Shown piece after piece: positions 19,656 to 55,787 of a stretch of DNA of 64,000 nucleotides. This DNA is from Polytrichum commune (taxonomy: Eukaryota > Streptophyta > Polytrichopsida > Polytrichales > Polytrichaceae). A program made the translations under genes and the position numbers. Position 1 is the stretch's first letter. Each line of letters starts with the position of its first letter. The notes beneath the pieces were generated by a model. The model was not told the origin of the DNA. It was given only the letters and a program-made list of their open reading frames with translations, and searched no databases. Location: assembly GCA_950295325.1 (NCBI GenBank), contig OX485809.1:20336001-20400000 (forward strand), in the 5' to 3' direction.

Positions 19656-22600
19656 CTATAACCTCTCGTGTTGTGCCTGGTAACATGCTTCTGGACACAT
19701 CCACTTGTTTGCACACGAGCCGCAGAACCACTTTTGCACCCGCCCGCATATGACGCATCGTCTCTTTAATTTGGAACGCCGTAGTGTGTGCACAGGGTGG
19801 GGGCGTCGAGCTCTACGCTCAAGAGGGACTTGGGTACTTTGGCGGACCTGTATTGCGGCGTCGGCAAGGTGCTTGCCGACAGCGATCTTGAAGGCAAGGT
19901 GAGAGGTCACGGGCAATCCGAGGTCCTCCATTTGCTTGGCCCAAACAACGTAGGCGTTCACCATTGTCTGGTCCACAATGAAGTGAAATATTTTCACCCA
20001 CCACTTGTGGCACCGAAGTTGTGATGAATAGTTGCCACGGAGCTGATCTGTCACATCGACACCGCGCATGTACTCGACGTACTGGCGGTGCATGGGTGAT
20101 GACGGAACCACCAACTGGCCGGTAAGTCCAGGTATTCGTCGAAGAACCTTACTGTTAGGCTCCCAGGGTGCGGCTGCAGTGCTCAGCAATGTCACCAACT
20201 TCTTGTCTTGCCAAGACACAACGCCCATCTGTCGGTGGACGTGATTCCAAATAATCATGGACCCCCTCACATTGTTGTCAGGCTCACGATAGAGTCCATA
20301 GGGCAGATTCTTGCTGGTGCGGCGCACGGTGCCCGTGGCCCACATCCCCTTGCACATGAGCTCATGGAAAAGGTTCACACTTGCGAAAAAATTATCGATC
20401 ACCAAACAGTGGCCCCGGTTTTCCAAACCCCTCACCATCCTTTCGACCACGTGGTAGCCTAAGCCGTTTGGTCCAGCCCCTGTGCCCTCCCCGAAATACA
20501 CCTCCATTTGCCAGACAAATCTGCTCTTCGAGCTTGCCAACAACCACACCTTAATCCCAAACCTTACCGGCTTGTCTGGCATGAATTGCCTAATGAAACA
20601 GTAACGCCCCTTGTAGGGGATGACACATTCATCCACAGTTATTTCCCTCTCCAGATTATAAATATCCTTCGAAACGTTTACAAACATTTCAACGAGCCAT
20701 CTTGTTTTCGCAATCCTGTCAAACAGCGGGTCAGTCACATCCCTCACTATAGTGGTGTTATCCACTAAATGCAAACATCGCATGATCTGCTCCCACCTCC
20801 CCAGCGTCATGATGGACGAGATAAGTGGACAATACAAGAAAGGTTGGCTACGCATCCAGTATTGGCGCACGCTTGGGAGACGTTTGCATCCCATGAGGAT
20901 ACAAATTCCCAGCCATCCCCGTATGTCGGAAGGATTCACATCCTTCCATAGCCGTCCACCCTTAGTGCGTGGCAACTCATTCTCCACAGGGGGCAGAACT
21001 GCCCTCGCATACCTGTTGGTCTCAACTACAATCCGATCCACACAGGCATCAGTCCAGTACAAATTAAAAACCGCATGTGGCTGAGGAATTCCTTCGGGCA
21101 TAGGGGCCTTCAAACCCGGCGTAGGGCCCGTGAAGTTGTCACGGCTTCTAACAAAGTCTACGCTGGCGGAATTCCATGACTCCTTCCGGTAGTAGTTTGC
21201 TAGCTGATCACTGTCCATGTGGACGGGTGTGAACGAATCAGGCGTCATGCACCAGCGTTCCAAGCCAGTTGCAAGAAATTCAGTTTCATCTAAATTATCG
21301 ACATCGAAGTCCAAGCCCGAGCTCTCTAAGGTATCACAGAATTCTGGTAGCCAATCCTCGCCACTAGAGTCCCCAGACATCATTTCCATTTCCATTTCCA
21401 TTTCCACCCCACCGGTTGAGTGCACAGATGTGTTAGAGCATAGCATATATTCTGGTAGCCCAACACTTACCTTCGGAAAAGTGTCTCTGGCTGTCGAGTC
21501 CTGCGTACCATCGACCCCCTCGGTATCGGAGGGGGCATCGTAATCCGCGATGGGGCGCCTAGCTGGTTGTCCCGGTGTGACCGGCACCTCAATGTTTTCA
21601 CTCACATGCTCCGTCATGCCTGGGCCGTTGCCACTCCCAACTCCACTTCCAAACCCCCCCAAAAGCCAGCTGTCACTTAGTCCGGCGACTGCCACTCCAT
21701 AAACTCCAACCGAATCAGGCACAGGGCTGAAGCTATGCTGCCTCTTCCACCATCCGTAGCCGTGACCCCCTTCGCTCCCATAGGCGCGTACAAGAGGCCC
21801 ATCTGCAACTCTGACATTTTCCTCGTCCAGGTGGCACTCCGCATCGTAACCCCCGATGTCGCACAACACCATCCTCTTCCCAGTCGCGGCGTGCACACCC
21901 TCACCGATGACATCCCCCTGCGTCCAAGATGGTGTATCGCCAGTGTGGAACGAGTGCTCAGACAGAAATCTATTGGGTACAAGAACTGCCCACCCAGCCC
22001 GCCTACAACTCCAATCCACATACAAGCCTTGGAAGCGGTCCGGCATAACACCGACCTCAAGAATCACCGGCTTCTCCAATGATCCGCCTGGATGTGTAGC
22101 TCCAAAGCCCGTGTGCTTTGAAATTGGCACCGATGTCCTCCAAGCGTCGTCACGGAACACAGACTCCCAAAGATTGACATTTACGGTATCCATGCTGCCA
22201 ATTGAATGCTGCCCTTCAGGCGCTACAAAGTCTTCCAGGCCCTCATACCCTGCATAATCGGCCAACACCTCGCAGATCACATGGTCGTCCACCATTTGCT
22301 GCTCATACTGTGCCACCTGCGCAGCCAATCCCCGGGTGCAAACTCCGTCGGTGATGTTAGGTTGTGGCGTCGGAGGCAACCATGCACGCGGCCGTCGCGT
22401 CTTGGAGCGCACCACCTTCCCTTTTTCCTCCCTTGTATGTCTTCCAGTTGGAGCCCGCTGCCCACCTGAGCAGCGACGGGAGTGGCAAGAATCAGCAAAT
22501 TACACATGCCACAACAAAGTGCACAGCCACTTCCAAACGACCACAACCATATACCACAGCTACAGACCACAGACAACACACACAGGGGGCAGAACGTTGG

Positions 22601-37200: not shown

Positions 37201-37900
37201 GGGGGCTTTGAGGCTTTAGTTGTTGGTTCTATGTTATGCTCAAGTCATTTGTTGATTTACTACCATTGACGACTGCAACATCATTGTATTTTATGTCCAT
37301 GAATGTGTCTTCTAACATGCCATGGCAAGTGAGTGAAGTCTATGATGGACATAGGGCCATAGACTTACTAATTTTACATGTAACACTATATTCGTTAATT
37401 GGAGACTTTGGAAAGTCTCAAAATAAATTGGATCCGTAGTTTCGGATGCGAATATTGTGAACGTATCGAACATGGGGAACAATGGCAACATAATCTTTTA
37501 AAGATCCATATGTGATGAATATATATGTTTCTAAATATAGTAATTATTTGGTTGATAATAAAAAACTATGGCAACACAATATTCCAATGACACAAATTCA
37601 CAATTATTTGTATTTTTTATTCTATATTGAACAAAATTAACGAATCTATAAATAGCCATCTAATTTTACAACTATGGACTCTTGGATGCGTATCCCAAAC
37701 ATAGAGATCTTAGCCTATTGTGGTTGAATTGAACGGCACATCCTAAACGCAACAATACTTAAAATAATTTGACAGTGTGCATAAGAGATTGCAAATTAGC
37801 ATCTGCAATATAATCATATAGTTTAGGGTCCACATCCGTAAAAATAAAAATATAAAAAACATTTGGATTCCACATCCGTAAATCAATGCATCCATGCACT
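34209..37900. other. BTB gene 3' flank and intergenic stretch
   Basis: About 3.7 kb without a gene I can support. The first part (to about 34700) probably includes the BTB 3' UTR. A minus-strand frame at 34893-35234 includes a hydrophobic segment, GLTGFLAIYQYFYMAAECPY, that looks protein-like but cannot be tied to exons. After 36200 the sequence is AT-rich with a CAA-rich tract near 36328-36375. Two half-copies of the palindrome family, CACATCCGTAAA, occur near 37828 and 37868. Confidence 0.4.
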
Positions 37901-38022
37901 ATAATTGTAATCTATAGAATTGCTATAAAATGTGTCTAATATAGTATTCGACCCCAATGTCATATATTTCATGAAAAACCAAGACACATTTCAAATATAT
38001 TTCGTCCAAACCTACGTCAATA

Positions 38023-40702
38023 TCATTCACCATCTTCATCTTCAGCTTCATTTCCATTCTCGACATCGTTTTCTGCAGCAGCAATACGTGCCAAGTTGTC
38101 TTTGGCAAAATCTATATGTTTTTGGGGGATGGTCATTGTCTCAGTTTTGGAACCTTTGCGTGGTTTCCAAGCACAAAGTATGGTATCCGTGTTTATCCAA
38201 ATTGGTTCGTATGCTGAGTCCATTGTCCATTTGAAACATTTTTTCGTGTCCCACCCTAAATATGTGCGGAGCACATTTTGATCTTTGGTGCTTGGACGGC
38301 AATATTCCACCTCAATTTGACGAAAATTTGGGCTAGTTGGAACAAAATTGGGTGATGACAATGCTTTCACCAACCAAACCGGTTTTGGATGCTCCTCATC
38401 TCCAGGACGTACGAGGACCATACAACCTTCGTAGCAATCAATAGCCACACGGAATGATGGAGCCGGACGATTACGAGCAGGGCCAACATAATGGTCGTCT
38501 GCCGCGAACTCTTCACGGACGTCCCCATTGTTGAAGAACATGGCCTCAGATTCCACGATTGTCACTCGGCTTTGTGGCCAAAAACCTTGTGTCAAACATG
38601 AGTGTCTATCGACATCGGGTGCTAGCAACGCTGAGCGGATGCGATCCCAATACGCAATCAATGGTTCGTGGGTATCCCGAACACGTCTTGTGATGTCTTC
38701 CTCGCACAAATCTTTCCAGTACTGGATGAATCCAGATATACCTTTGATGATTTCTGGCCCATTCCTCATGGGGTTGGGTTTGCAAGGCTTCGGCTCCCCA
38801 TCAGGTAGCATACATTTGCCATCTTCGTTTTGGCGCCAGACGAGTATTCCTTCCTCTGGACCCCAATTTGGGGAGGTATACAAAACTTTGAATTGCATGG
38901 CCGGCAGACCATCATCACGCATATAGAACCGGAATTGTTGAGCCTTGGTATGGCCCACTAAGCGATCACCTCTCTTAAGAATGAATGGTTTGATAAACGC
39001 TTTGAAATCGGACACTTCTTCAATCAAATGCGGGATAACTGGCACATTATCCAAATCCATGTACGATTTCATGAGAAGAGGAATTGTGGGAAAATCCTCC
39101 TCGTGCAACTTCATACTCCAACGTCCGAATGAAACATCAATGTCATCGTGCGTGTGGCCAACCATCAAAAAAGACACAAACACTTCTTTGAAAATGCCCT
39201 TGGCTACGAGCAATGACCAAAAACAAAATATGTATCGACATTTGTTGTCCTTGGCACAATTATCAAGTTGCACATGTAGAGTTGGAGGCAAAGGTTTGGC
39301 AAGAACGGGTTGTTCAGGCGGTTCTTGCAGTGAAGATAGGCAAACCTCCCTTCCCTCTAGTACAGCCTCATAAATCGGTGTTGTTCTACATCCAACAAAA
39401 AGAGCACGAGAGGATGATGTTGGCGGACTCTCAAGATCTCGTAGAAGTTTTGCAAAAGACCCTACGGTATGATTGGCGTCACCAGAATAAAAATCCAAGC
39501 CATAATGTGCATATTTCACGTCCACATGGTCATGTGCGATCATACCTGTATTTAGGGACACACATGAAATAGTCACTCTAAAATCATATATATGAATGAA
39601 ATTCAAAATTTCCGCAAGCAAGCCAAAAAATGTACACTTATGGACGTACATCCGTAAATCTTAACAATGAGTATGTGGGCACGCAAAAAATAAATGTGAA
39701 AACCAACAAACCTGTGACAGATATTGGAAGCTTGAAATATCCATCTGTAGCTTTTATTTTTCGTGCATAACAAGGGCACGCCGTCTTTGCATGGTCCATT
39801 TTGTCATGAATGATTGTCAAAACCTCATTCGGCCTCATTATCGATAATGCGCGATTCTTGTAGTAGTCTTGACGGTGTGCCTCCTGGTTGTTGACATGCT
39901 TAATGTATTTCAGTTGATGTCTGTTGTGCGACTCAGTACCTATGGGATGTGCATCTCGAAGGCCTTTATATTTCTCACAAGCAGAACACCTGGCAAACTT
40001 ATCCCTGGGTCTCTTTGTAATGTATTCTGCGAATTGTTGATTCTTAATCACACTCAATTTTGACAACGAAATCGGCCCACATCCAGCTTTTTCGCCAACT
40101 TCATTAACATCCATAAGTATGTTCTTCCATTTTGTCCCTGTAGGCAAAACCATCTGAACAACCTTTTCCCCCGACGGTAGAGTCCGCGTCTTGTGTGGCA
40201 TCGCATCTGCCAAAGGCATAATGATGGTTGATAGTGTTGCAGCCGCTTGGAGTGTTGCCTCCCTAGGTTTTTTTGTGCCAGAGTTACCATGGAACCGAGA
40301 ACGGCGTACTTGCATCGAATAGTTCCGGAACCTATAAAAAACTGCCTTTGAAACTGCATGTATAATGTACCATGCCTTGCAACATATCTCTACATTCTCC
40401 AAGGTCACAACCTTACGACCTTCGGCATCAAGGTGCATGTTGCGATGGACTTCAAGTTTCTTTGCAGATCGCATACGAAAGTCCGCGAGCCACATCTCTT
40501 GTCTCAAAGATTTGATTTTGTCACGGGGAAATAATTGGCAACATTTCTTTGCACAACAATCTTTTGTTGCTACAGACCTAATAGATGCGTCTCCCAATGT
40601 TTGATCTCGACGACGTTGCGTGGGTTCACGAGGCAAACGAACGGAATCATATTTACGGCGACCTATTCTAGGGCGCATTGTGGCGAACAAAGCCGATTGC
40701 AT
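38023..40702 (-). CDS. DUF7869-type transposon protein, two exons, 837 aa
   Basis: Exon 1 40702-39712 and exon 2 39545-38023 join through a GT-AG intron in phase 1, giving 838 codons including the stop. The N-terminal half has Cys-rich pieces (CCAKKCCQLF, ARCSACEKYKG, ACPCYARKI) that could bind zinc. The C-terminal half carries HDHVDVKYAHYG, then LHVQLDNCAKDNKCRYIF and, about 25 residues on, SFLMVGHTHDDIDVSFGR. The QLDN...NK...VGHTHxDID pattern is typical of DUF7869 proteins, which occur in high-copy transposons of plants and animals and look like an RNase H-fold transposase core with Asp residues in those motifs; activity has not been shown as far as I know. The 166-bp intron contains a degenerate copy of the palindrome (39637-39659). 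The upstream frame may belong to the same protein (next entry). Confidence 0.75.
39637..39659. repeat. Degenerate palindrome in DUF7869 intron
   Basis: TTATGGACGTACATCCGTAA, a decayed copy of the palindrome family with core ACGGACGCGCGTCCGT, lies inside the only intron of the DUF7869 gene. Confidence 0.6.
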
Positions 40703-40726
40703 TTGATCAAAACAGCAGGAATGATT

Positions 40727-41116
40727 CTACAAGCTAACACCATCATGAAAAACACTGCGCAACGGCCATCGACGAAGAGAGAATCTCCAACCAGTAGGCA
40801 CTTCCAACGGATGTAAGGAATTCAAAATGCACACCCCCACATCTTCTTCCCCAAGGGGATTTGCATCAATACAATCCGTAGGATTCGAGTTCCGACAAAC
40901 ACCATCCGCCACGGTGACGCCACATCCATTGAGTAGGACGACATCAAGATCAATCCATTGCTCCCGCGAATAACCCTCACATGGTGGAAGGAATTCATCC
41001 TCTACATTGGCGACACCAATTGTAGTATCTTGTTCCACGACAACTTCAAACTCGCTATCATAGCTTGACGCTTCCGAAGAAAAATCAACCCCACTATCAC
41101 CGACGTTGGAATCCAT
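40727..41116 (-). pseudogene. Upstream frame of the DUF7869 gene, split off by a TAG
   Basis: Starting from an ATG at 41116, 129 codons run to a TAG at 40729-40727. The same frame then continues without interruption into the ATG at 40702 of the DUF7869 exon. The product is acidic (EASSYDSEFEVVVEQDTT) and contains SLRRWPLRSVFHDG. Because frame is kept on both sides, this is best read as the original N-terminus cut off by a CAG-to-TAG change; alternatively the downstream ATG is the true start and this is an upstream open frame. Confidence 0.55.
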
Positions 41117-41260
41117 GGCCACTACAAGAAAGCCCAATGAAGAGTATGTCAAAATATCTCATTCAATAAATGTCATGAATAGCCCTAACGCTTATTATTG
41201 TCAATGAAACACAATGTGAACACTAGTGGCTTTCATGGCTTGGAAACAAAACTAGCATTG

Positions 41261-42110
41261 GTATACGAACGTGCGTCCGTATACCTCCATGTAACAACAT
41301 CAGCAACGCAAGCACACGTGCATACGGATACATTTATGTGTTCATAGGAGCGGAAAGGTGGAGGCAACAAAAACATCACTGGTTTATGGACGCGCATCCG
41401 TTAATCGGCTCGTGCACAAAGTTCAGTATCATGCTCAACCACAACATAGGTATACGGACGCGCGTCCATAAACATCCGTATGACAAACATCAATGTAGTC
41501 CTAGACACAGGTTCAAGGAAGCAAGACGCCCTCCAAAAACGGCCATGTGTACACAACCCTGACGACTCATGAAATTTGAAGAGGATTGAACACGGCCATA
41601 CGCGCTTCCTAAAATGTTTAATCAATGTCAAAATATTTTACTATGACATAGGATGATGTAGGCTAAGGGATGCGAGCTCCCAACCCTTCCTGACCGTACA
41701 GTCTCAGTGCAGTCTCAGTCTACATGGCACATGGTCAACATTATGGTAACAAAGGTTTCCAGGTTTACGGACGCGCGTCCGTAAACCTCTGTGGACCTCA
41801 TTCCTAGCATAAAGACAGTGCTCGATGGAATACACCTCTGTGGACATCATTAGTAGCCTAAATACAATGTCCAACGCGCCAAGGGGTTTACGGTTTACGG
41901 ACGCGCGTCCGTAAACTTCCATGGTAATATATTGTCGTTGTGGTACTCTACACGACAAGTGGTGTAGGTGACCTACAGAACTATGGCACCAAAGGTATGC
42001 AGGTTCACGGACGCGCGTCCGTAAACATCCACGTACATGAGTATTGGCTCAAACAAATAAAGGTTCAATGAACCAATATGTTTAAGGTTTACGGACGCGC
42101 GTTCGTAAAT
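41261..42110. repeat. Palindrome array 5' of the DUF7869 gene (seven copies)
   Basis: Copies at 41261-41284, 41381-41406, 41451-41472, 41761-41788, 41893-41916, 42003-42026 and 42087-42110. The copy at 41761-41788 is a perfect 28-bp palindrome and that at 41893-41916 a perfect 24-bp one; the core is TTACGGACGCGCGTCCGTAA. Others carry one to four changes, mostly C-to-T or G-to-A. The copies lie in otherwise unrelated sequence within 1 kb upstream of the minus-strand DUF7869 gene, spaced roughly 60-310 bp apart. Confidence 0.9.
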
Positions 42111-43157
42111 CTCCGTGATTTGCGGCGTTAAAATAGGATCATTGCACCAGAAATGATAACTGTCCGATTTTTTTTTTTAAATCAGCACACTACAAGGAGA
42201 GTGCAACCCAAATACAAATTGTCTACCCTAATGGGCTCAGGATTTGGGGTTTAGGGTATAACATGATCTTTACCTGCACAAAATCTGTAGCTGGAGCACA
42301 CTACAAGAGCGCAACCCACAGCTGAGATGCAAAAAAAGTCCCGATGGTGGGGGGTGTCCCCTTAAGTACTGATCGCTTTCCCTTGGATCCGTTTTCCAAC
42401 ATAGGATACCAGCCACCAACTATGTCCTATAAATACAAACCTAGCATTACTACATTCTGTGTGCCAGCCTTACAATGGAATGTGTATTCATGTGGACAAC
42501 ATGCATAGACCATGAGTCCACATGATGACAAAGAGAAAGGCATCTATGTATTTGTGGTATACAACAAAGTAAATTGGCTAATATTATATGAGCAATAAAC
42601 ATTGTTGAGGGGTGGTTTATAGGATTGGAGTACATAATATGAAGAATACATTTTAAAAAACGTAGACAAAAAATTATAGAATCTTGTGAAAAATCAACCA
42701 CCACAACAACAATAGTACATGGAGTATAAAAATACATGTAATCAAAATTAAATTAGCAACTACTTTATTGTTTTGCATACAATGTAATGGTATTGACCAT
42801 AATATCATGCCATCTCCTCTCATCTTGCATTTAATATTATAATTACATTGGCCACCGCCTTACCATCCAACATGTTTAATGTACCCAACTATACACACCT
42901 ATACATAATTGTATTGATATCTGATACACAAACTTTGATTACCGTAAGGCCATGATAGTAGCACATCTATTGTCCTAGGTAACATGGGTTGCATTCAATT
43001 CAATATTGTCAATTTGCTCTCTAAACCTTAGGGGCCCCTTCCGTACATCAACATTTACTTCAAAAAAACTAATTATACTAGCCTTCTTCATGTACTATAC
43101 ATGAGGAAAAACATTTTTTAGTACCTCATGTACATTACCTACATTAATTAATACTCA

Positions 43158-43330
43158 AACAATACCAATTGTTGCTCCAAGTAACATTATTAGCCCAAAA
43201 AAACATAATGGAGAGAAAGGAAGGGTAGGGTATCCACATAGTAATAAGGCAAGCAATATTAAGTTGGTGACGCAAGGGGGATACTCATATGCGTTCGTAC
43301 GTGGTACCCTAAACCCTAAACCCTATAACC
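43158..43330. repeat. Duplicated unit with telomere-type repeats, copy 1
   Basis: Shares with 43440-43612 an ordered series of blocks: accaattgttg, gtaacatta/cacta, agaaaggaagggtagggta, agtaataaggcaagcaatat, ggtgacrcaagggggata and a tract of about two to three CCCTAAA units. The telomere-type tract is too short to be a chromosome end. Confidence 0.85.
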
Positions 43331-43439
43331 ACCCAACCCTAAACAAGCATGTGGACATATAGGGGTGCAAGCATGGTTAACTGAACAACTCCTGATACAT
43401 GTCAAGGCTTAAATGGAAAGTAATTCAAAACAAGCAAGC

Positions 43440-43612
43440 AAACAATTATACCAATTGTTGTTCTACGTAACACTATTAACCCATAAAATATAATGGACAG
43501 AAAGGGAGGGTAGGGTAGGGTATCCAAATAGTAATAAGGCAAGCAATATTAAGTCGGTGACACAAGGGGGATACCCTAAACCCTAAACCCTAAACCCTAT
43601 AAACGACTCCCC
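43440..43612. repeat. Duplicated unit with telomere-type repeats, copy 2
   Basis: Second copy of the unit at 43158-43330, ending in about three to four CCCTAAA units near 43572-43600. The two copies differ by scattered substitutions and a short insertion in copy 1 before the CCCTAAA tract. Confidence 0.85.
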
Positions 43613-46600
43613 ACTCATGTCAAGGCCCAAAATTATCTAAAATAAAACCATAAATATTTCAAAAGTCAAGCAAATTTATGTTCACAAATTATACTTCAAG
43701 ACAGTAAGTGGTGAAAAAGTAGGTGACATAGAACAAAGATTTATCAAATTGTCAATGGCAATCCTAATTACCCTATATGCGTAACCTTACATTTCATTTT
43801 TTTAATCTTTATTTGGCTGGGTAAAATATACCCCTTAGAGGCAAGTACAAGATTTAGCCGGGACTTGTTATCCTTTGATGTGACCTCAAGTTTATAATGA
43901 AATGAAGGGATACAATATGAAAACAATTAAGCCTTCAAAACATTTAAGATCATCAAAGTTATGTTCTGAGTCATATTTATCCATTTGCTTTAAACCTTTA
44001 CTTTTGAAGATAGGTTTTGAACAACATTAACACAACCATACATGTCACCATCATGGAAACAAAACTCCAATATAAACAACAATTTGCTACTACTTATAGG
44101 CGATAATACAAGCTCTTGCCTAGGTTTGGAAGGATTGGATGAATCCTGAACGTTGTTTAATGTACAAGAGGGATGTAAATTCAACACCTACCCATGCCTT
44201 TTGTTTTAATGCAAGCTTAGACCTATGTGCAGAGGGATTGAATTAACCCCTAACATTGTTTAAGATTTTATAAGCATTTGATCTTAACCCATATTATCTC
44301 GATGTTTGGTTTTGTTTATTGTGTTTCAAATGTGCATAATTTAAATATCATTATTTATAATGATATTCGCATCAAAGCATCCCATGTGTCAAACTTCAAT
44401 AAAGTTTTCAAGTTGCTATTGATAGTATAATGTAGGGTTGAAAATCCCCTTACACAAATTATTGCGATAATTGAGGGATTCATAAGGGTGTAGGGGCAAC
44501 GTTTCATGAGAATTTGTGGCCAATGGGTAATGCAATTGTCCCAATTGCATTTGAATCCCACCTTTGTGAAAAAAAAAATTATACTTAACTTAATCAAGAA
44601 GACATCCTTTATATTCAATATTATTACTATTCTTAAAATATAAAGTCCCCTCCATACTTGCTACACTAGAAATGGTATAATTTAGTTTCACTCATTGTTT
44701 GGAGTTACAAAAGGCTTTATCTTTTTATTATTGATGTTATTTAATTGATGCCAATGACATAATATACAATGAATAGTTAATATAGCAATCCATAATTCTA
44801 AATATTAAGCAATACTACTTATAATAGTTAGTGTACTAGTAATTTAAAGCCCGCTTACCTTCATATTACAACAAGTCCACAAAGAAAATCTTACACTTGA
44901 GTTACTCAACCTCAACCTATACTTCAGAATTATGTTTACTATTGGGCCTAGATGGTTATTATACATTGAGCATTGAGATTCCTTTATTTTTGGTCAGCAA
45001 TTGTTTTTGGCATATGTTCTTGGACTCAAACAACATACAATCCATCCTCTATAAATGTTAGGCTCTAGAATATAATGTTCCTAACATTTATTGTGAGTTG
45101 ACATTGTAACAATTATAAAGGGAGCTTTTTGAATGCTTAACAAATTTCATTCATTACAATTATGAAGGGAGAGTTTTGCAAAATTATCAAACATAAAATA
45201 TGTGTATCAATCACAATATAACCCATATTAATAATTTGATCACAAATTTGGTGGCTTTTGCCACTTTGGAAGGTTGTGACTCAATGTAATGGATGTCATC
45301 TCACAATATTGGATGTAGTTCGTAGGTTAACATTTATAAGTGACAAACTAACAAAGAGGGGAATAAATTATTCTTAACATTTAACAAAGTTAACATTCTA
45401 GTTAGCAATATGAGAGGAGTACGAATTTGTTAACAAATACAATTATGAGTTAACATGTGGAAGTGTGACATTTATCGAGGGTGGACTCTAGCACTCTAAT
45501 ATAGACCAATAGACATATGCCACGTAAGGGGAACGCGTGGCCTTTGGGCGCGGGGTGATGGGACGTCTAGGTAGGGGCGTTTGGGAGGGAGTGGATGCAA
45601 CGTTTTGGGTTTAGGGTTTCGTGCATTCGCCCTTGCCCTTTTTGCTTTCACCCTTTCACCCTTTCCTCCTTTCGCTCCTTTCCTCCTCCTGCATTCCTTT
45701 GTTGCTCGCCCTTGCTCCTCTCGATCGCCCTTGCTGGTCCTCCTTCTCCTCCTCCTCATTCTCCTTCTCCTTCATTCTCCTCCTCAATCTCCTTCTACTT
45801 GCTGTTTCTCCTCATTCTCCTCCTCCTTCTACTTGTTGTTTTTCATCCTTCTCCTCTTACTTGCTGTTTCTCCTCTTTCTCCTTCTTGCTCTTGATTTGT
45901 TGCTTTGTGTCTTAGTTGCATAAGAGCGCCGGGAGCTCTAGCCAGGTGTTTTTTTCTTTCCTTCACTCCAAGATGTGCTGTTCCAGGTGCTTATTAGGTG
46001 ATTTCAGTGTATGTTTTGATGCACAAGAGGGGGATTGTAAGATTGTAAGATTGTAGCTGGTTTAGGGTTTCTAAGATAATGTATGTGAAGAAATCTGAGT
46101 ATGTTTGTGAAGAAATTGAGTAGTTTTTTGCTTGCAGTCTCATTAGGACATAATTGGAGTAGTTTCAGTTGGAAGGGTTTTAGGGTTGGAGTAGTTTTAG
46201 TTGTTTCAGATTGCTCTTCCCTTCATATTGTAATTGTCTTCACTTCACTTCAATTCACTTTGTCCAAGTTCTAAGAAGTTTTGCTTTGTTCACTTCAATC
46301 TGATGTCAATGTTGAATCCAGTTCAATCTTTGTAGTAGGGTTTTTTTGTGGGTTTGATGCATTTTAGGAGCAACACAAAGGTTAGTTGATTCTTGAATGT
46401 GCACATTGCATTTGCAGAGGTTTCTAACTTCAATTCTATTGTTAATTTGCAGTCTCTCCTAGCTGCAGCTGTGGTTTAGGAGCAAACATTGTACAAAGGT
46501 AAGTGTTTCATACAACATTGCAATTTTGAAATGATACATTCTTCTTAGTTTGGAGTGTAGAATATGCTATTGCAATGCAACACCTCATACATTCTAATCT

Positions 46601-46719
46601 GGAGTGCAAATCCATGTTGCATTCCAAGTTAAGATGAACATTGCACATGAATGTAATGCACAGAAAAAGTTCTTCTGAAAATTTCGGAACAATATCCAAA
46701 AATACATTAACAATAATTG

Positions 46720-47060
46720 TACAAAGTACTTAAATTCACAGTAATTAAAAAATGGTCTGAAGTTTACGGACGCGCGTCCGTAAACTTCAGGGAACCCTGG
46801 GAATAAGCATCGCAAATTGTGTGAAAACATTAACAATAATTGTGCGAAGTAATTAAATTCACAGTAATTAAAAAAATGGTCTGAAGTTTACGGACGCGCG
46901 TCCGTAAACTTCAGGGATCCCTGGGAATAAGCATCGCAAATTGTGTAAACACATTAACAATAATTGTGCAAAGTAATTAAAATCACAGTAATGCCTGAAG
47001 TTTACGGACGCGCGTCCGTAAACTTCATGGAACCCTGGGAATAAGCATCGCAAATTGTAG
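46720..47060. repeat. Three tandem ~118-bp units, each with a long palindrome
   Basis: Three direct repeats each contain ttaacaataattgt, aattcacagtaat, the palindrome, ccctgggaataagcatcg and caaattgt. The palindromes in these units are the longest in the window: perfect over 34 bp at 46757-46790 and 46881-46914, and 32 bp at 46996-47027, extending the core with CTGAAG/CTTCAG arms. Confidence 0.92.
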
Positions 47061-47547
47061 AGATATTTCAAAATAACTATTAATAAACTTGAGATATACA
47101 AAAATCTTGAGATATACTTGAAATCTAATACATGATACATGTGCAGAGTTTATGGACGCACGTCCATAAACCAAGCAGAGAAAACATGAGAATCTTATAA
47201 CATGATACATGCCATGGGTTTTCAAAATAAGTTCTACAATATATACAAGTTCTATACAACAAAAACAAACATATTTTCTAAAAATTTACAGACGCACGTC
47301 CGTAAATAAGGGCTACCTAAGAATAAAAAACCTATTATATTCCAAAATATAGAAATAAAGACTTTTGGATGATATATCCGCATGAGTTTACGGACGCGCG
47401 TCCGTAAACTCTGCACATATATCATGTATGAGATTCATTTTAATAAGATATCTCAAGTTTACGGACATAAACTATAACATAATACATGTGTAGAAACCAC
47501 ATTCTATATGAGAATGAACGCATAGGTTTACGACCGCGCGTTCGTAA
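46757..47547. repeat. Palindrome array in leader intron (eight copies)
   Basis: Copies at 46757-46790, 46881-46914, 46996-47027, 47148-47171, 47284-47307, 47385-47410, 47457-47472 and 47525-47547. The copy at 47385-47410 is a perfect 26-bp palindrome. The one at 47457-47472 (GTTTACGGACATAAAC) lacks the central part. Surrounding sequence outside the 118-bp units is unrelated between copies, so the palindrome itself is what recurs. Confidence 0.9.
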
Positions 47548-48907
47548 GATAGGCTCTGCATCCCTTGACCATAATACTGATTTATATATTTTACATTTGT
47601 AGATGGAATCTACAAAAAGACCAGCTATTGATATATTCGTAGAGCTTCTCCATCCTCCACTTCCAGACGCCATCAAAGATATCAACCACAACGACCATTA
47701 TAAGCCACGCGATGACATTGTAGATAACTGGATAGTTATTGTAGAAAAAGATGAAAAGGAAATATTTGTCCTTAGATTTGCCTATCAAATAAAAGCAGAT
47801 ATAGATGAAACCGAGAAGTGGATCAAGGTCAAAAGTTGGATAGTAGAGTGTGCGGTAGCTCAAGGTGATTATGTTGTCATTGACCTTGAAAAGAAAAATA
47901 ATAGGATCACATTCATTTTGCACGAGTTGTACCATCCGTTCAACAAAAATGAATGTGAGAATGCCAGTCCAGATGCGTCTTGCTTCAATCTACAGAATGA
48001 ATTCAAAGACTATGCATGTAATGCGCCCTGGACGGGTAAACGGCTTGGACGTCTTTTGAACAACGTGACAAGAATAAATGGGGCATTACTCGAAGCCAAG
48101 AAAGGAAAAGAGAAGAAAAAACCAATTCCTGAACGACCTAAACGTGTTCCTAAACACGTGCCAGAAGCCTCCAGACCCTCACAGAGTGGAGCATCAAGAG
48201 GGAGCAAGCAGGCCAGTAAACGCTCCCACTCACAGATGGAGTCGTCTGGGCTAACATAGGGTCCAGATGTGAGTTCCACTCTTACAGTCGCCCCACTTCT
48301 CAAGAAAGGACAACGCCCGGACGCCGAACTATCCACAAAGATTTTCCAAGAGTTCGACGAGAAGACAAAGGGCTGCTGGCCGATTGGCAGATATTTCACG
48401 TTTGATGTGGATGTCTATAAATGCCACAAGGGCACGGAGAGTATGAATACTCGTGCCAAAGAAGAGAGCGGGGTGTGGTGGCAAATGAATAACATTATAA
48501 ACAACCCCAAGTTTGATAGGCAAACAATATGTGTGACACCAAAGGATCCTGTGGTTGAAGTCACAGCGCAAAATTGGCCAATTCTCAAAGATGGAGAGTT
48601 CTACATAGTCGACGGCCAACATAGCGTGATGGCTGCAAAAGCTCTCCTCGAGGACGATGAGTGGAAGAGCCCTTTGAAAGAGACAATCTGATACTGGAAG
48701 GCATTTGTCGTCCATTCCAAAGATTCGAACCAGCTCATCGCAATATCTGCCTTCATGAACCAAGGGAATAAAGTGAGGCAGTTCGAGGCTTCATGGGCTG
48801 CCAACATCGTGGCTGGAAGGACCTTGTGGGTGGAGCACGATTGTCCCCCAAAAGAGAGGAAGAATGCAGTCATCAAGAATTCCAAATGGCATGTATGTCT
48901 CTGTATA

Positions 48908-48931
48908 TTTTCACGGATGCGCGTCCGTAAA
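48908..48931. repeat. Palindrome in intron 48893-49005
   Basis: TTCACGGATGCGCGTCCGTAA, shortened here to its recognisable core CACGGATGCGCGTCCGTAA, sits 15 bp into a 113-bp intron of the ParB-like gene. Two positions differ from the consensus. Confidence 0.85.
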
Positions 48932-50370
48932 CCTCTTCCTCCTTCCCATTCTTTAATTCCTTCAATTTAAACTCTGCTGACTTCTTGAAATGCATGGCTT
49001 TGCAGACATTCAGCAATGCCATCTTGACAAAGTTGTCCAGCATTGACATGAAGACGAGCGGCATGAAGACGGTGCAGGAGCTGAAGGGGGAACTTAAGCT
49101 CAACACTGCCACAGAAGAGACATGGGCAATTTGGTTGCGCCTATTCGATGCTCACAACAATGGAGACCTTATCAACCCGGATGCTGAAAACACGTACAAG
49201 AGCGACTCAAAGGTTAAAGTGCCACCTATCCTAAGAGAGTTCTTTCGTCCCTTCCAAAAATTGCTCGACTCCGAACTTTACAGAGCAGCACAACACATCC
49301 TGTTGGAGACTCCAAGGAGGACACTGCCCTACCCCAAAATCTTCCTGAAGAAGCCGAAGCACATGAAGCCTTCTACGTACCACATTAAGGAATGGTGCGA
49401 ATAAAAGAAGAAGAAGACCATGGCTATAAGGGAGATTAGCAAGTTGTTGCCCTCCCACAACCTCACTAATACAGATGGTGAGATAATGTGGGAAAACTGG
49501 AGGACGCTCAAGGAGGAATACCACATCAATGGGGTCTCCATGCGATCATTGATAAGACGCGCATCTCCCTTCCTAGCCCAAAGATCTAGGAGGAACGAGA
49601 AGAAAGGGTCTATTGATGAAAGAGAGACGGCGTTGTACGTGCATTTTCTTGACAGAAAAAACAAAGAAAAATTCGGAGGGGTCGCAAGATTCTGCACAGT
49701 GACATCGGCCTTGAAGTTTGGCACATGGGACACCCATGCTTCAAGAGCCTCTGTGAGAGATGACCCCCGGGGTTGTCCGTTCGCAATCTTTGATTTCCGT
49801 GCATTTCCTGGATCTTGGAGACAAAACGTTGGCGGGACCGCTTTCTATGACAACTTCTTCAAGGCCTTCAAGAGCTATCGGTCGCCTGCCCTCTTCGAGC
49901 CAAATGTGTGGCTCTGGATCGTAGATCAAGAGAGGTCCGCATCGATCGTCCAGCTGTACACATCGACGATGAACCTCCAATACGATTTTTACCACAACAC
50001 ATACATCCCCGCGAAGACTGAAGGGATCAGTGTTATTGAAGAGGCAAGATGAACGAAGCAGGCCGGGGCTGTGGCACTTTATTTCTTGACACACAAGTCT
50101 TCACCAAGTGGACGGATGCCTATCAAAGCGCAGAACGTGTTCAAGAAAGTATACTCGTTGTCACCACCACACCCCAAGGAGCTTGTCGCGGAGACTATGT
50201 ATGCACTCTACCCGGTGTACGAGCTCCGAATGGATTTTTATATTGGAGTCTTGAAGGCTGTGACTGTGATGAGTGAAACAATTTACAACGTCTTCGGAGG
50301 CACCAAATTTGTTTATGCGGCATTGGTAAGTACTTGTATGCACCTCTTTCCATGCTCCATCTGAATTGAA

Positions 50371-50491
50371 ATTTACGGACGCGCGTCCGTAACATTGCCC
50401 ACCATATATGCAGTGCAAATTTACGGCCGCGCGTCCGTAACATTGCCCACCATATATGCAGTGCAAATTTACGGCCGCGCGTCCGTAAATT
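50371..50491. repeat. Three palindromes in 48-bp tandem repeats, intron 50326-50569
   Basis: Palindromes begin at 50371, 50419 and 50467 with a period of 48 bp; between them the spacer cattgcccaccatatatgca is repeated. The second and third have GGCCGCGC in place of GGACGCGC, a shared change showing that the duplication copied an already altered site. Confidence 0.92.
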
Positions 50492-51901
50492 ACACTGCTT
50501 CATGTTAATATTTGTCCTCATACTTGCTCGCAACAATGGAATGACCATAATTTCCTTGTTTTGGTGCAGATGCTTGGGTTGCAGGTAAATTCGTTTGTGG
50601 AGGCTCGCGACATGGATGAGGCGAATACTCATAGAGTTCTTGCCTCCAAAATGGATATCGAAGACATCATCGATATCCTTACCCCCATCCTGTGGTGCCT
50701 CTTGCCTCAAGAGAAGAGGGAACTCCTGCGACGGAGTGGGATAGTGACGGAGACCAAGAGCCCGTGTCCCCAAGAGAGCAGCCCGCCAGACAAGATCACG
50801 TACCCGGCCTTGTTCGTGATCATGTTCATCCTCATCAATTTGTCTTGGGCGAAGACCGCATGGATACAGAGGAGGCGCATGAAGACTTCACTCCAATAAG
50901 GGTCCATCCTACCCCTATTCCCTCTCCTTTTGGGACTCCCACTTCTCGAGTTGGGTTTCCTTCCACTGCGGGTCCATCGCGTGCTGCTAGGCTTATGGCT
51001 TATGGCTTATGTGGACGTTGCGACAGAAGCCGGATGCACAGCCTCATCTGGAGGGGGCTCTGAACAGGCAGAGCTACCACCTATGGAGGGTAGGGACGTG
51101 CTAGAGTTGATTTTGAGGCCAGATATCGCCTCATACCATGAGAGTCGTCGACAGAGGAAGAAGACTCCTTACAACGAGTACCCTGAAGGCGCCGTCTTGG
51201 AACTCTCTGATGAAGACGAGGATGAGGTTAGGATGTACAATGCCCTCTCTGCGTTGCCTTCTGAACCTGGCAAGGTGAAGAAAGAGCCTATGTCTGTGGC
51301 CGAATTGGACGAGAAACTGGAGAAGAGAATGAAGGAAGAGCTTGACCAACGGCTTCGAGAAGCTAACGAGGAGCACGCCAAAAAGATGGCCGCCATCCAA
51401 GCTGAGATGGAGGAGGCTAGGTTGGAATCTGCTCGAAGGCACGCCGATCTCATGGCTCAAAATCAACACTTATTGGCCCAAAGCCAACAATTTATGAGCC
51501 TCATGCAGAGCTTGCAAGCAAGACCCCCGGTAATGTATGCAGCTCCCAAAGCCGGCATGTCGATGCCTCCCACTCTCATGCGGCCTCCGTCTAGTAGCCA
51601 TACGGTGTACATACCAGAGCATACCTATCTAACCCCCGCCTTGTATGTCCCGCCCTCACCCTAGGTTGCTGCCACCCCAGAGCCCTCCTCTCATACGGTA
51701 CGAGAAGAGGAGAGACTTGCAAGTTATACGGCAGGTGCTCACGAGAAAGGCGCCATTGAAGACAACACAACCATTGGCAGCCAAGAAGATGAACATATGT
51801 GGGGCAGCCAAGACGCCACAGATGAAGATCAACCTTATGTCGACACCCAGGGGTCGCAAGCGGTTGGAGGCACCTTGGTGGTGGAGGATAGCTCGCACAA
51901 A

Positions 51902-51922
51902 TTTCCGGACGCGCGTTCGGAA
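51902..51922. repeat. Palindrome copy in coding exon
   Basis: TTCCGGACGCGCGTTCGGAA lies inside the third coding exon of the ParB-like gene, where it would be read as FPDARSE. It is the only copy found in a presumed exon and has compensating changes that keep the symmetry (TTCCGGAC / GTTCGGAA, one mismatch). Confidence 0.8.
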
Positions 51923-52013
51923 CGTGTGCCCACGATGGGGCCTAGTGAGCCAGGCACTGCTGGCGAGGGCCTCGCCGCTGAAGAGGTAATCCACCTTTGA
52001 GCTTGCCTCCCAC

Positions 52014-52034
52014 ATTACGGACGCGCGTCCGAAA
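52014..52034. repeat. Palindrome in intron 51986-52326
   Basis: ATTACGGACGCGCGTCCGAA within the intron that separates the coiled-coil exon from the HAD exon. One arm position is changed. Confidence 0.85.
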
Positions 52035-52326
52035 CTTCCTTGTCTGCCAACTTCGTGGCGTGTGTATATTGTCGAGTTCGATGCTCGACTTCGCCCGGCG
52101 GGTGGATGCAATTTTGCCAGCATAGATTCAATTAGTTTTAGAGGAGACCTTTTGTGACAATGTAAATTATTCGCGAAATGTATTAAACCAAGCACATTAA
52201 TACAATTTTTTTGAACTGGGTAGTTCGTATTCTTTTTGCCTTATATTTGTTTGTTGAGTTTGTGCATGCTTGTCAATTGGTTTTCATGGGTAGTACCATT
52301 CACCTAGATAGTATGTTCCATCACAG

Positions 52327-53094
52327 GGTCCGTCGGAGATATGTCGCAACCCAACTGAAAGACCAAGCCGGCCCATGAGGAAACCGTTCATAATATTTGA
52401 CCTCAATGGCGTGCTTTGTCATTCCATGCATATCTCCAATAGTGCGTCGAAGGGTCCCTTCCGTAGTCCACAAGACATGGATTACGGCGGACAGTTCGAT
52501 ACTCCCATTAACAAGAAGGTTGTACGGGCCCGGCCCGGGTTGAGGTGCTTCCTTCGTGAGGTCCTTGGGTTGGCCCATGTCATCATCTGGAGCTCTATGC
52601 TCATGGACAACACGAAGGCCATCGTCGGTTTCCTTTTCCGAGAACTCGCAATGCCATGCTTGCTTCTCAGTCAAGAACACTGCGATGACCTTTATGACCG
52701 TAGCGGCAACATTGTACCCAAGGTCGGAGGAGGCCGAGGGCCTCAATTCCTAAAGGTACTGAGGAAGAACCTTTGGGTGGGCGTCCCTATGTTGGAGGGG
52801 GTGCCCCACGGTTGTTGGCCCACCCCGGAGAACACGCTCCTCATTGACGACAACCCGGCAAAGAGTATTCTCAATCCCCCGGGCAGTTGCATATTCCCGG
52901 ATCCTTGGGAGAGTGATAGAAATGACAACTTTCTAGAGAATGAACTAGGACCCTACATTAGGAGGCTTGCCTATCACCCCGGAAGTGTCCCGGATTTGGT
53001 CCTCTCCAACCCCATTGGCAATAGGCCTCTAGGCCCAAGAGATGAGGAATTTAGGAGGTTGTACGGCTATGCCAAACCCAATAAATTAATATGA
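52327..53094 (+). CDS. FCP1/NLI-interacting-factor-like HAD phosphatase domain
   Basis: Open for 255 codons from an acceptor at 52326 (ATG at 52375) to TGA at 53092. HAD motif I is IIFDLNGVLCHS, with DLN in place of the usual DxD, so the acid/base Asp is replaced by Asn. VRARPGLRCFLREVLGLAHV and IIWSSMLMDNTKAI match the FCP1-type motif II region, and TLLIDDNPAKS is motif IV. FCP1-type enzymes remove phosphate from RNA polymerase II CTD or other Ser sites; with Asn in motif I the activity here is doubtful. The preceding exon ends in phase 0 at 51985 and this one opens in phase 0, so it reads on from the ParB-like gene; it could instead be its own gene starting at 52375. Similar 'DLNGVL' proteins occur in plants. 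Confidence 0.72.
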   Translation, partial: GPSEICRNPTERPSRPMRKPFIIFDLNGVLCHSMHISNSASKGPFRSPQDMDYGGQFDTPINKKVVRARPGLRCFLREVLGLAHVIIWSSMLMDNTKAIVGFLFRELAMPCLLLSQEHCDDLYDRSGNIVPKVGGGRGPQFLKVLRKNLWVGVPMLEGVPHGCWPTPENTLLIDDNPAKSILNPPGSCIFPDPWESDRNDNFLENELGPYIRRLAYHPGSVPDLVLSNPIGNRPLGPRDEEFRRLYGYAKPNKLI

Positions 53095-53182
53095 GAACTG
53101 ATTTTTGGGTTTGTACTTGGACTCTCCATGTTTATATCTAACATTTCTCCCCTTATTTTGTAAATGTATTTTTGTGTCTTAG

Positions 53183-54067
53183 TTGCCTCACCAAGCATCC
53201 CAAAGTCTCGTCGATGGCATGTGTGCATCTAAACCGGGCCCCAGCTCCCCTTCCATTGGTGTGACCGACATTTCAATGCCTTCACTATTTCAATTTTCAG
53301 CCGTCGATGCCGCCTCTGCTGTTGATTACTCCAAAGACTCGGGGTTTGAAGACGGAGTTGTCGATAGCCCTCCTCCAAAGGTTGCAAAACACAATTACGC
53401 TCCATCTCCATCTCCATCTCTCCTCCGCAATGAGAAGCACGTTCAAAACCCGCGGTCGACCAGACGCCTTTGTATGGATGAACCCCAAATTGATGTCCCG
53501 GCGTTTATGAGCGTCCCTGTTGTGCTTGTGGCCCCCCTCGATGTCTCAGAAGGTCAAACCACTGCCCCGCAGGCCAAGGTGCCCAATTATTGGCATTATC
53601 AAGTTTTTCCTTCATGATTTCCGTGTATTAGTGCATTTCATATTCTTGGGTTTTTCGGACTTCCATCCGTAACTTATACTAACCCACGTCATTATATGTA
53701 TTTATGGTCATTGTTTCAGACCCCAATACACATGAATGTGGGCCGTTCATCCTCGACTTCGTCATTGGATAGGCGAACACTGAAGACTGCTTCTTGCGAG
53801 TCTGATCGTTGTTTGGCCCTACGGAAGAGTGAAAGACATTCGGTTTCCCAAACACATTCGTATTCCACTTATTCGGTAGGGGGTCAGCAAATATGGGCAA
53901 ATGGCACATATTCGGGGTCGACAAATAGACAAGGTTACAGCTGCGGACCCGAGATCTTTAGGGCCATGGAGGCCATGAAAGCAAAAGACCGTGAAACGGT
54001 TGTAAATGCTAATAATAGTATTGCAAAAACAAAAGTACTGAGTCGTAATCATGATCCGAACGTATAG
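53183..54067 (+). CDS. 3' exons, unrecognised Ser/Pro-rich protein end
   Basis: Two open blocks, 53183-53578 and 53720-54067, join in phase 0 across a 141-bp GT-AG intron and end at TAG 54065. The first starts right after an acceptor (tgtcttag) and has no ATG near its start. The product is Ser/Pro-rich with a short helical end (FRAMEAMKAKDRETVVNANN). It may be the C-terminus of the gene containing the HAD exon, if the TGA at 53092 is a nonsense change and a 70-bp intron starts at 53113, or the tail of a separate gene. An AATAAA lies near 54164. The intron holds a weak palindrome relative (53651-53675). Confidence 0.5.
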
Positions 54068-54189
54068 GCTATATTAACATACATGTAGTTGTGGAATTAT
54101 GTTTCTAGGACTTTCGCCTAATATTGGATATTCCACTTGCATTTTGTACTTCAACCCCTATTCAATAAATATGATATTGATTTTCCATA

Positions 54190-55405
54190 TGCAAATGTTT
54201 TCATATATCCCATTTTCTTATTTTTATGTGTAGTTCCATGCATTTGAGTCTCTTATTTGTTTCCAAAATTGGGAACATAGCATATTTTTAGTGTTTTCCT
54301 TCCTACAAATGTGAAAGCCACGTCCTTAAATAGTCTCAAAATTAACGAATATAGTGTTATGTCGATGAACTATATCATGGGGGAGTATAAGCAACTATGG
54401 TATGTCGACAGTGATTTCACATTCTCACAATCACGTGGTTTAAGCAAGACCATAATAGGTACCTCAATATCACATTTATTTGCACATACAAGTGACCTAT
54501 ACCAAGAACCAAAAGAAAAGGAAAACTTTCAAATAAAAGAATTTCATTGAAGAAATTTGGATGTCATCCAAATAGTGTGGCTTTGAAATTTTGTTCAAAA
54601 GGGCAATCCAATGAGCTAATTGGCATAAAAATCAAGATTGGGACACTCTAAATACCTAAACTTGTCAAAATGTCCGAAATACGTATGACTACTCCATTAT
54701 ATAACTTGAACAAGTTCAGAGTTAAGGCTAAACAAATCTTCTTACCGCAGTTTTAAACTTTCACTACACTATTAAGTGTTGTGTTTAGTGTCATATGGTA
54801 TTTTATGTCACTGTGGTAAGATCTCTAATGACACTTCTAAAAAATAGGTTTATAAGTATTGTCCTCCCAACTTACTTTCAGTTCATCCAAATACCAATTA
54901 TTGAAACAAGGTTTGATATATTTTTCTTGCTAACATTTTCGTACTGAAACATTGTCATGAATGATTGAGATTCTAATTAATGACATAATTAATGAATGAT
55001 AATAATTGCAAGATTTGTAATCTATAATGCCCAAATTTGTTTTCAAGGATGGACAAATAATGCCAACTTTACATTTAGTGTTGGTTTTCCACACGGGCAG
55101 TTTACAATTAGTATTGAGCAAATAGAATTGGTGACACAAAATACGATATGTAGTGTAGTAAGCATTGTTGTTTTTACATGATTATGGGTTTTGATGGAAT
55201 AGTCTAAGTCAATGTGGTGGAAGGGTCATTACAACCACAACCAATCAAGCAGAAGCTCTGTGTAAAAAGACCTCGAATCCCTTTTCATTGCATGTGGTTG
55301 GCTAGGTCTCAAATGATAAGGCAACGAAAACTTAACATACATATTTGATTTCTTATTCAAGCCGGTTAACACCAAATTAATGTTAAACACTGTAGTATGT
55401 AGTGC
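54190..55405. other. Gene-free AT-rich stretch
   Basis: I see no supportable gene. Small frames at 54311-54550 and 54996-55181 lack domains and splice context. Confidence 0.45.
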
Positions 55406-55415
55406 ATTCATTTGC

Positions 55416-55787
55416 CACGGGCTAAATCACATCTGTGTTCCTTTGGGCCCTGCCCCTCCCATGCCTCCTTCACTACCCAATCTTCCTACCTGCACTTGCA
55501 TGGGTACTCCTCTTCATTGGGAACCAATATGAAAATACCCAGACAAAATTACAAATATTCAAGTTGACATCACTTTCATAATTCCCAAGTTAATTGATGA
55601 AGCTCCTTCACAAGTTAATGAAAGTGATGTCAACTTGAATATTTGTAATTTTGACCAGGTATTGTCACATTGGTTCTCAACGAGGAGGAGTTCCCACGTA
55701 GGTGTAGGCAGGAAGACCGAGCAGTGAAAGGAGGCATGGGAGGGGCAAGGCCCAGCTTAACACATATGTGATTTAGCCCGGGGCCAA
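55416..55787. mobile_element. Foldback (long inverted repeat) element, 372 bp
   Basis: The two halves are inverted copies of each other over roughly 160-170 bp. The left half reads cgggctaaatcacat, cctgcccctcccatgcctcc, and acaaatattcaagttgacat; the right half is the reverse complement of these in reverse order. It is flanked by TCATTTGC at 55408-55415 and 55788-55795, an 8-bp target duplication. The element is non-coding and would form a long hairpin if transcribed. Exact outer ends are uncertain by a few bases because the terminal positions mismatch. Confidence 0.88.

Follow-up and report, generated by a model that had tools for sequence, protein, structure and literature searches.

Family-specific palindromes in a DNA transposon of Polytrichum commune and the element-encoded protein that may read them

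Why should about twenty copies of one long palindrome lie in the non-coding DNA around two divergent transposon genes? This question is raised by a 64,000-nucleotide stretch of the Polytrichum commune genome (GenBank assembly GCA_950295325.1, contig OX485809.1, positions 20,336,001 to 20,400,000 of the forward strand), hereafter the window. We found that the palindromes belong to a single DNA transposon with many relatives in the genome, and that each family of relatives carries its own palindrome. The family specificity of the motif is a new finding. We read the palindromes as candidate sites for a dimeric protein that the element itself may encode.

Palindromes of one element and its families

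The core ACGGACGCGCGTCCGT occurred eight times exactly in the 64-kb window and 20 times with up to 3 mismatches, always within 41,265-52,032; no site at up to 3 mismatches lay elsewhere in the window. In 100 dinucleotide shuffles the mean was 0.05 sites at this threshold, and none reached 20. The preliminary description had reported about twenty clustered copies with no full copy elsewhere in the window, and both statements held. Its clusters in the two leaders were also recovered, but the DUF7869 leader holds seven sites at up to 3 mismatches, not eight. The introns at 48893, 50326 and 51986 of the plus-strand gene contained one, three and one sites, as it had proposed. The copy that it placed in the DUF7869 intron exists in decayed form, with 4 mismatches; sites stand at the matching place in other copies of the element (A2 4445, B6 3635, C2 3615), and none was seen there in D1 and D2. 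Placement in non-coding DNA was confirmed for most sites, except for the one at 51,905, which lies in coding exon 3. Across six element stretches, 9 of 148 sites fell in aligned coding DNA, which accounts for 49,616 of 99,587 bp; this count uses approximate ends for D1 and E1, and tandem sites are not independent. Here, W denotes the window copy, and A2, B6, C2, D1, D2, E1, G3, H6 and the L-numbered loci are other copies or loci of the same genome.

The two genes had been described as two transposon genes. They are indeed two divergent genes, but both lie inside one transposon of 16,977 bp, the ends of which were set by comparison with other copies (Table 1). The terminal inverted repeat (TIR) AACACTATATTCG was found at both ends of W, B6, C2 and D2, and each of these four copies, the ones with both ends read, is bordered by a different 4-bp duplication (ATGT, CTCA, CTGG and TAGA, respectively). 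Of 20 further copies, 17 had the TIR at the expected place (16 exact, 1 variant) and three had no recognisable TIR. With TIRs, a target site duplication and many dispersed copies, the element has the marks of a DDE-type DNA transposon. The element does not qualify as CACTA (EnSpm) on two counts: once the duplication is assigned, the TIR begins AACACTA and not exactly CACTA, and the duplication is 4 bp and not 3 bp in all four copies. Because the genome searches scored the best candidates only (80 of 1,855, 150 of 871, 142 of 1,026 and 150 of 1,491), the family sizes are lower bounds. Decayed single half-sites are also paired near the left TIR in families A to C (W 37833/37873; A2 2632/2671; B6 1798/1856; C2 1504/1565).

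Identity of the ParB-like exon to W splits the lineage roughly into A (92-95%), B (78-83%), C (72-76%) and D (46-49%). A, B and C, together family I, share the motif ACGGACG-NN-CGTCCGT. D, which shares the gene order and the outer TIR with W (the outer 13 bp are identical in W and D2), carries ACGAACG-NN-CGTTCGT, and its exact form TACGAACGNNCGTTCGTA has 4,680 copies. Family E was found nested inside copy A2 and has 9,731 copies of TTTGGGTCG-NN-CGACCCAAA. Families F and G were reached through DUF7869; F has 953 copies of CACGGGTG-NN-CACCCGTG. The reversed control gave 0 for D, E and F alike. The G motif, GGTGAGGCA-NN-TGCCTCACC, lies in a 61-bp tandem array directly before a ParB-like reading frame, and it is weaker evidence since the whole 61-bp unit is repeated. 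The half-sites are TTTACGGACG in I, TTTACGAACG in D, GTTTGGGTCG in E and CCCACGGGTG in F; written outward from the gap, they become GCAGGCATTT, GCAAGCATTT, GCTGGGTTTG and GTGGGCACCC. In this form the four half-sites look like variants of one recognition mode, and the step from I to D changes one base pair per half-site.

At 18 loci of about 4 kb (8 A/B/C, 5 D, 5 E), picked by hand across the clades from 292 rows, the motif was that of the protein clade in every case; one of them, the decayed copy L025, had one exact inverted pair only. Furthermore, the plus-gene introns of D2, E1 and B6 contained sites in all three introns, with three different motifs. The site nearest the start of the plus gene was D-like on both arms in B6 (about 11801-11818) and on one arm in W (47,530-47,545). 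One such D-like site was present in L020 and L021, and it was absent from L019. It is perhaps a relic of the motif switch.

The preliminary description had also asked for a genome-wide count of the core. The exact core occurred 1,097 times in the 408-Mb genome; the reversed pattern gave 0, and so did one control palindrome of the same composition and CpG count. The first 50 core sites listed were all on contig C1, and for 49 of them a listed ParB-like exon was no more than 12 kb away. The remaining site belongs to a partial family I element, which contains nine more sites at up to 2 mismatches in the half-sites. An even spread with no association with these genes was thus not seen, as far as the count was run. 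In addition, the E motif forms three small arrays at 0.44-0.48 Mb of C1 (L056-L058, C1:436001-480000), with a period that is mostly 32 bp. Some of these arrays adjoin a copy of a long terminal repeat (LTR)-like repeat.

Two other roles for the E-type palindromes were considered and rejected. Copies B6 and D2 suggested targeted insertion near such palindromes, but an E site was found in none of 17 further left flanks and a D site in 1 of 17 (this flank count omits the three of the 20 copies in which no TIR was recognised), and the flanks of B6 and D2 are largely E-element sequence, which indicates nesting and not insertion targeting. The TTTGGGTCG palindromes were also taken for terminal or subterminal transposition sites; they actually lie outside the TIR, in other elements.

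What is conserved in the sites

For the conservation analysis, sites were selected on their half-sites, with up to 2 mismatches allowed per arm and 3 in all, and the spacer and outer flanks were not used. The conservation scores of the half-sites themselves are therefore inflated. Only distinct 36-40-mers were counted, which reduced I from 87 to 75, D from 65 to 61, E from 50 to 44 and G from 61 to 41; F had 11. In D and E, the spacer scored 0.3-0.5 bits per base, with 12 different dinucleotides in each family. The preliminary description had stressed perfect symmetry, which stands only in part, given that the central two bases vary in D and E. The near-free centre in these two families suggests two half-sites read by a dimer. 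In family I, the TTT/AAA outside the picked 7-mers reached 1.1-1.9 bits, and the half-site there is therefore about 10 bp.

Sites with unrelated flanks shared little beyond the half-sites in I, D and E. Mismatched sites were changed on one arm only in 23 of 28 cases in D, 13 of 14 in E, 2 of 2 in F, 25 of 33 in G and 20 of 41 in I. None of the sites mismatched on both arms in D (5), E (1) and G (8) carried symmetric changes. Inverted repeats with 8-bp arms were found with spacers of 0, 2 and 4 bp (84, 150 and 145) and hardly with spacers of 1, 3 and 5 bp (2, 3 and 2); only even spacers are expected because one common centre requires them. At 46757-46790 and at other family I sites, the symmetry runs past the half-sites with differing flank letters, with arms of up to 17 bp, and 23 bp in C2. 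Overall, the sites appear to fit a symmetric protein dimer that reads two half-sites over a 2-bp gap better than a hairpin. This half-site reading is supported, not proven.

The two genes of the element

The minus-strand gene matches DUF7869 and presumably encodes a DDE-type transposase. Of the stretches considered for an RNase-H-fold catalytic triad, GHTH(D/E)D(I/V)D was present in all five aligned DUF7869 sequences and DN in four of them (SN in L015); the first D was uncovered in two rows. The W copy has an in-frame stop at about 40,727. A search with the DUF7869 exon in viral contigs returned no confirmed relative, and the name DUF7869 occurred in none of the 5.39 million papers searched, whose coverage leaves out most subscription journals.

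Three introns, each bordered by GT..AG, interrupt the plus-strand gene, and their positions correspond in W, D2, E1 and B6. Exons 1-3 of this gene comprise an N-terminal domain, a predicted ParB/sulfiredoxin-fold domain, a helical region, a possible degenerate methyltransferase-like region and a low-complexity region. In W, D2 and E1 the NIF exon continues in phase from the preceding exon, which makes likely a single long protein with a ParB-like domain and a NIF domain, the latter resembling carboxy-terminal domain (CTD) phosphatases. The NIF match was also obtained with Pfam in D1 (13703-14473, 1.2e-16) and E1 (14235-15044, 1.3e-13). The plus gene of W has in-frame stops; exon 2 is open across 400-500 codons in many other copies. 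The usual first motif of HAD proteins is DxDx(T/V). Since that of the NIF domain here is DLN(G/R)VL, its phosphatase activity is uncertain.

The ParB-type fold was predicted from a structure model of exon 1 of a D-family copy. For the domain at about model residues 254-394, ParB, Noc and KorB chains filled the top nine VIA rows (Z 8.9-6.9); most of the rows below them were sulfiredoxins, and the first unrelated row had Z 5.9. The plus protein is thus predicted to contain the ParB N-terminal (ParB/Srx) fold. The N-terminal domain resembled PH/PTB folds weakly (VIA Z about 4-5). A GERR-type stretch is among the motifs by which ParB binds cytidine triphosphate (CTP); the word GERR was not found in the ParB paper searched. 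In our alignment A1, DGQHS stands where this stretch would be and no GERR-like stretch was found, so CTP binding by the plus protein cannot be assumed.

Exon 2 ends in GETVYN(I/V)FGGSKFMYAAM, which resembles motif I of DNA methyltransferases, followed by MLGLxVN. Its structure model had a mean predicted local distance difference test (pLDDT) score of 42, a low confidence that decides nothing. Profile comparison of this region with ten methyltransferases (E. coli yhdJ and nine from phages) gave a weak result (hhalign P 0.036, probability 1.4%), with exon 3 still attached in three of the fourteen sequences. No PF01555 was found in three named records in which it was sought as a source of methyltransferases, and a Pfam scan of the plus-gene exons returned no DUF1985 or DUF287. 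No confirmed relative emerged from viral contigs (exon 1 alignment), phages (exon 1 protein), prokaryotic genomes (exon 2 alignment) or plasmids (exon 2 protein), and the plasmid and phage rows were at chance level.

Table 1. Features of the window copy; positions count from the first letter of the window
Feature	Position	Strand	Basis
Whole DNA transposon, 16,977 bp	37382..54358	.	AACACTATATTCGTTAATT inverted at both ends; homologous B6, C2 and D2 end in AACACTATATTCG
Left target site duplication, ATGT	37378..37381	.	matches 54359-54362
Right target site duplication, ATGT	54359..54362	.	matches 37378-37381
DUF7869 gene (PF25273), presumed DDE-type transposase	38023..41158	-	Pfam 2.1e-38; intron about 39,546-39,711
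Decayed palindrome ATGGACGTACATCCGT, DUF7869 intron	about 39641..39656	.	4 mismatches
Seven-palindrome cluster, 5' side of DUF7869 gene	41265..42106	.	up to 3 mismatches
Seven-palindrome cluster, 5' of plus gene	46766..47545	.	up to 3 mismatches
Plus gene, exons 1-3	47603..52326	+	splice-site words, homologous exons; fold prediction on D-family copy
Plus-gene introns	48,893-49,005; 50,326-50,569; 51,986-52,326	+	splice-site words, homologous exons
Palindrome, plus-gene intron 1	48913..48928	.	up to 3 mismatches
Three palindromes 48 bp apart, plus-gene intron 2	50375..50486	.	up to 3 mismatches
Palindrome, coding exon 3 of plus gene	51905..51920	.	3 mismatches
Palindrome, plus-gene intron 3	52017..52032	.	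up to 3 mismatches
Exon 4, NIF-type (CTD phosphatase-like) domain	52327..53094	+	Pfam PF03031 3.3e-13; joined to exon 3 in phase 0

Two further features of the window lie outside the element: an inverted repeat of 111 nt (84% complementary, arms 38 nt apart, 55469-55728) just beyond the right end of the transposon, and a 947-amino-acid open reading frame on the minus strand at 19659-22499.

Which protein may read the sites

Between W and D1, the plus protein was 59% identical in the NIF domain, 50-53% in the ParB-like and exon 2 regions and 35% in the N-terminal domain; the DUF7869 exon was 79% identical and its N-terminal part 69%. Given that the plus protein diverges faster, it is a better candidate than the DUF7869 protein, and it is the likeliest binder. 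The co-divergence of protein and sites is plain from the clade comparison; binding itself, the identity of the binder and an effect on expression or silencing are inferred. The dimeric element-encoded binder of the preliminary description gains indirect support from the change of motif with protein clade, which falls short of proof that the ParB-like protein is the binder.

On balance, and with moderate confidence, we consider the palindromes to be sites for an element-encoded dimeric binder, probably the plus protein, that keeps its own family's transcription units open. The plus protein would bind, as a dimer, the palindromes of its own family. Each family would have multiplied its own half-site, as an inverted pair 2 bp apart, in the leaders of both genes and in the plus-gene introns. 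The bound protein would keep the units open by anti-silencing or activation, in the manner of VANC, and families would diverge as protein and sites change together. Since the host has plant-type TTTAGGG repeats, which were seen at the listed end of C1, DNA methylation is a plausible silencing mechanism. A fuller version, which we regard as doubtful, is a system like ParB-parS in which the ParB-fold protein loads at the family's palindromes and spreads or bridges, and the CTD-phosphatase-like module acts on RNA polymerase II. Each family would thereby open its own copies, and new families would arise by joint replacement of site and reader domain.

Several observations weigh against the element-encoded dimer. 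The spacer is restricted in the other families (CG in 54 of 75 family I sites; AA, TT or AT in F; TA or CA in 40 of 41 in G). In family I, 8 of the 21 sites mismatched on both arms carried symmetric changes, some of them related by descent, and flank symmetry exceeded the prediction from pairing between sites, for example 0.72 vs 0.38 at the fifth base. A simple dimer site leaves both features unexplained, and the test of arm independence rests on few informative sites. As for the protein, clade matching cannot separate the plus protein from the DUF7869 protein because the genes of one element are inherited together; no mosaic element was noticed, though no systematic search for one was made. 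The exon 1 model had a mean pLDDT of 61, a Z near 8 is middling by VIA's own note, and Foldseek returned no match at E<=0.001 for this model (best E 0.25). Library searches with the ParB-like and exon 2 regions gave nothing above the curated cut-off and weak matches only (DUF6551 0.083-0.15, phrog_27051 0.017, GHBP 0.0012, FecR_C 0.024). H6, a more distant DUF7869 element, had no repeated palindrome in the 9 kb read. Finally, no match to an E protein was found in the 4-6 kb read at the three E-motif arrays on C1; the similarities there were short and confined to arrays or repeats. Their palindromes may have been copied by another route, or the arrays may be diverged elements or non-autonomous users of the E protein.

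If the DUF7869 protein bound the palindromes, they would be internal sites for transposition or autoregulation. Sites do occur in the leader of its gene and, in A, B and C, in its intron, and its N-terminal part also diverges (69% between W and D1, 59-71% between E1 and D1). However, the outer TIR, the expected transposase site, is unchanged across families with different motifs, and exon 2 of DUF7869 remains 79-84% identical between I and D although the sites changed. The sites are moreover internal, and near the left end there are only single decayed half-sites. We therefore regard this alternative as unlikely. Palindromes in leaders and introns are typical of regulatory sites, as would be expected if a dimeric transcription factor of the host had been hijacked and each family had settled on a different factor; the E-motif arrays where no E element was recognised point the same way. 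This is quite unlikely in our view: the motif follows the element clade at 18 of 18 loci, each of the 50 family I sites examined falls inside or close to such an element, and the I and D motifs are one base pair apart in each half-site, although the repeats listed for the five D loci included no exact I-type pair.

Hairpins in RNA or DNA, acting in splicing, mRNA structure or cruciforms, would suit sites in introns and leaders, the long arms of some family I sites (17 bp, and 23 bp in C2), and the symmetric changes and excess flank symmetry of that family. Against them, each family conserves the sequence itself, most mismatched sites of D, E, F and G are changed on a single arm, the two central bases often fail to pair with each other in D and E, and copies also lie 5' of both genes, which leaves hairpins very unlikely. 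Passive satellite growth, in which palindrome-bearing tandem units of 32-135 bp expanded without function, accords with the many sites in tandem arrays (64 bp in E1, 95 and 135 bp in B6, 61 bp in G3). It is highly improbable, as, apart from the half-sites, little is common to the sites with unrelated flanks in I, D and E, sites recur in three separate introns of one gene as well as in both leaders, and coding DNA is avoided. Similarly, we give hardly any credence to a DNA methyltransferase, encoded after the ParB-like domain, that would mark the palindromes as self DNA. The motif-I-like stretch, on which the weak hhalign alignment falls, and the methyltransferases in the first rows of one VIA list speak for it; the exon 2 model is poor and unrelated folds tie with them, no family match was convincing, and no DPPY-type motif was present in the alignment.

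If the dimeric binder is the correct interpretation, a transposon lineage would have recruited a ParB-type and a CTD-phosphatase-like domain. The genome contains at least four families that differ in half-site, with some 16,000 exact sites between them, a natural series in which the coevolution of binding specificity and sites can be followed; the change of a single base pair in each half-site between I and D is one step of it. Among the titles and abstract openings listed by literature searches whose coverage leaves out most subscription journals, none described such an element. The likeness to bacterial ParB-parS lies in the predicted ParB N-domain fold, a 16-bp two-fold site and many sites per element; unlike that system, the present one belongs to a eukaryotic transposon, with DGQHS in place of the GERR stretch. 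CACTA elements have a duplication of 3 bp, compared with 4 bp here and a TIR that begins AACACTA. According to PMC2613891, CACTA TnpA (Spm/En, Tgmt*) is likewise a transposon-encoded DNA-binding protein with repeated sites, and both the site motifs and the protein that binds them differ from family to family within a genome. Here the binder is a candidate, and the sites are internal, whereas TnpA sites are subterminal and needed for transposition (PMC2613891).

The closest parallel is VANC of the VANDAL elements. VANDALs are Mutator-like elements, and their duplications are longer than the 4 bp seen here. The family-specific short motifs of the present element, concentrated in its non-coding DNA, conform to the VANC type, and the plant precedent named in the preliminary description is apt in this respect (PMC5735166). 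In that source, VANDAL motifs lie in introns and in intergenic, upstream and terminal non-coding DNA, with tandem multiplication; motifs and protein diverge between related transposable elements, and the transposase is more conserved than VANC. As in Arabidopsis, short motifs, often tandem, differ between families in their own non-coding DNA, and the accessory protein evolves faster than the transposase (PMC5735166, PMC10398659). In these sources, the VANC motif YAGTATTAY is not palindromic, unlike the sites described here, and VANC has DUF1985/DUF287, whereas the plus protein combines a NIF domain with a fold predicted to be of ParB type. The element looks like a further case, of independent origin, in which a transposon encodes a protein that reads its non-coding DNA, built from protein parts unlike those of VANC.

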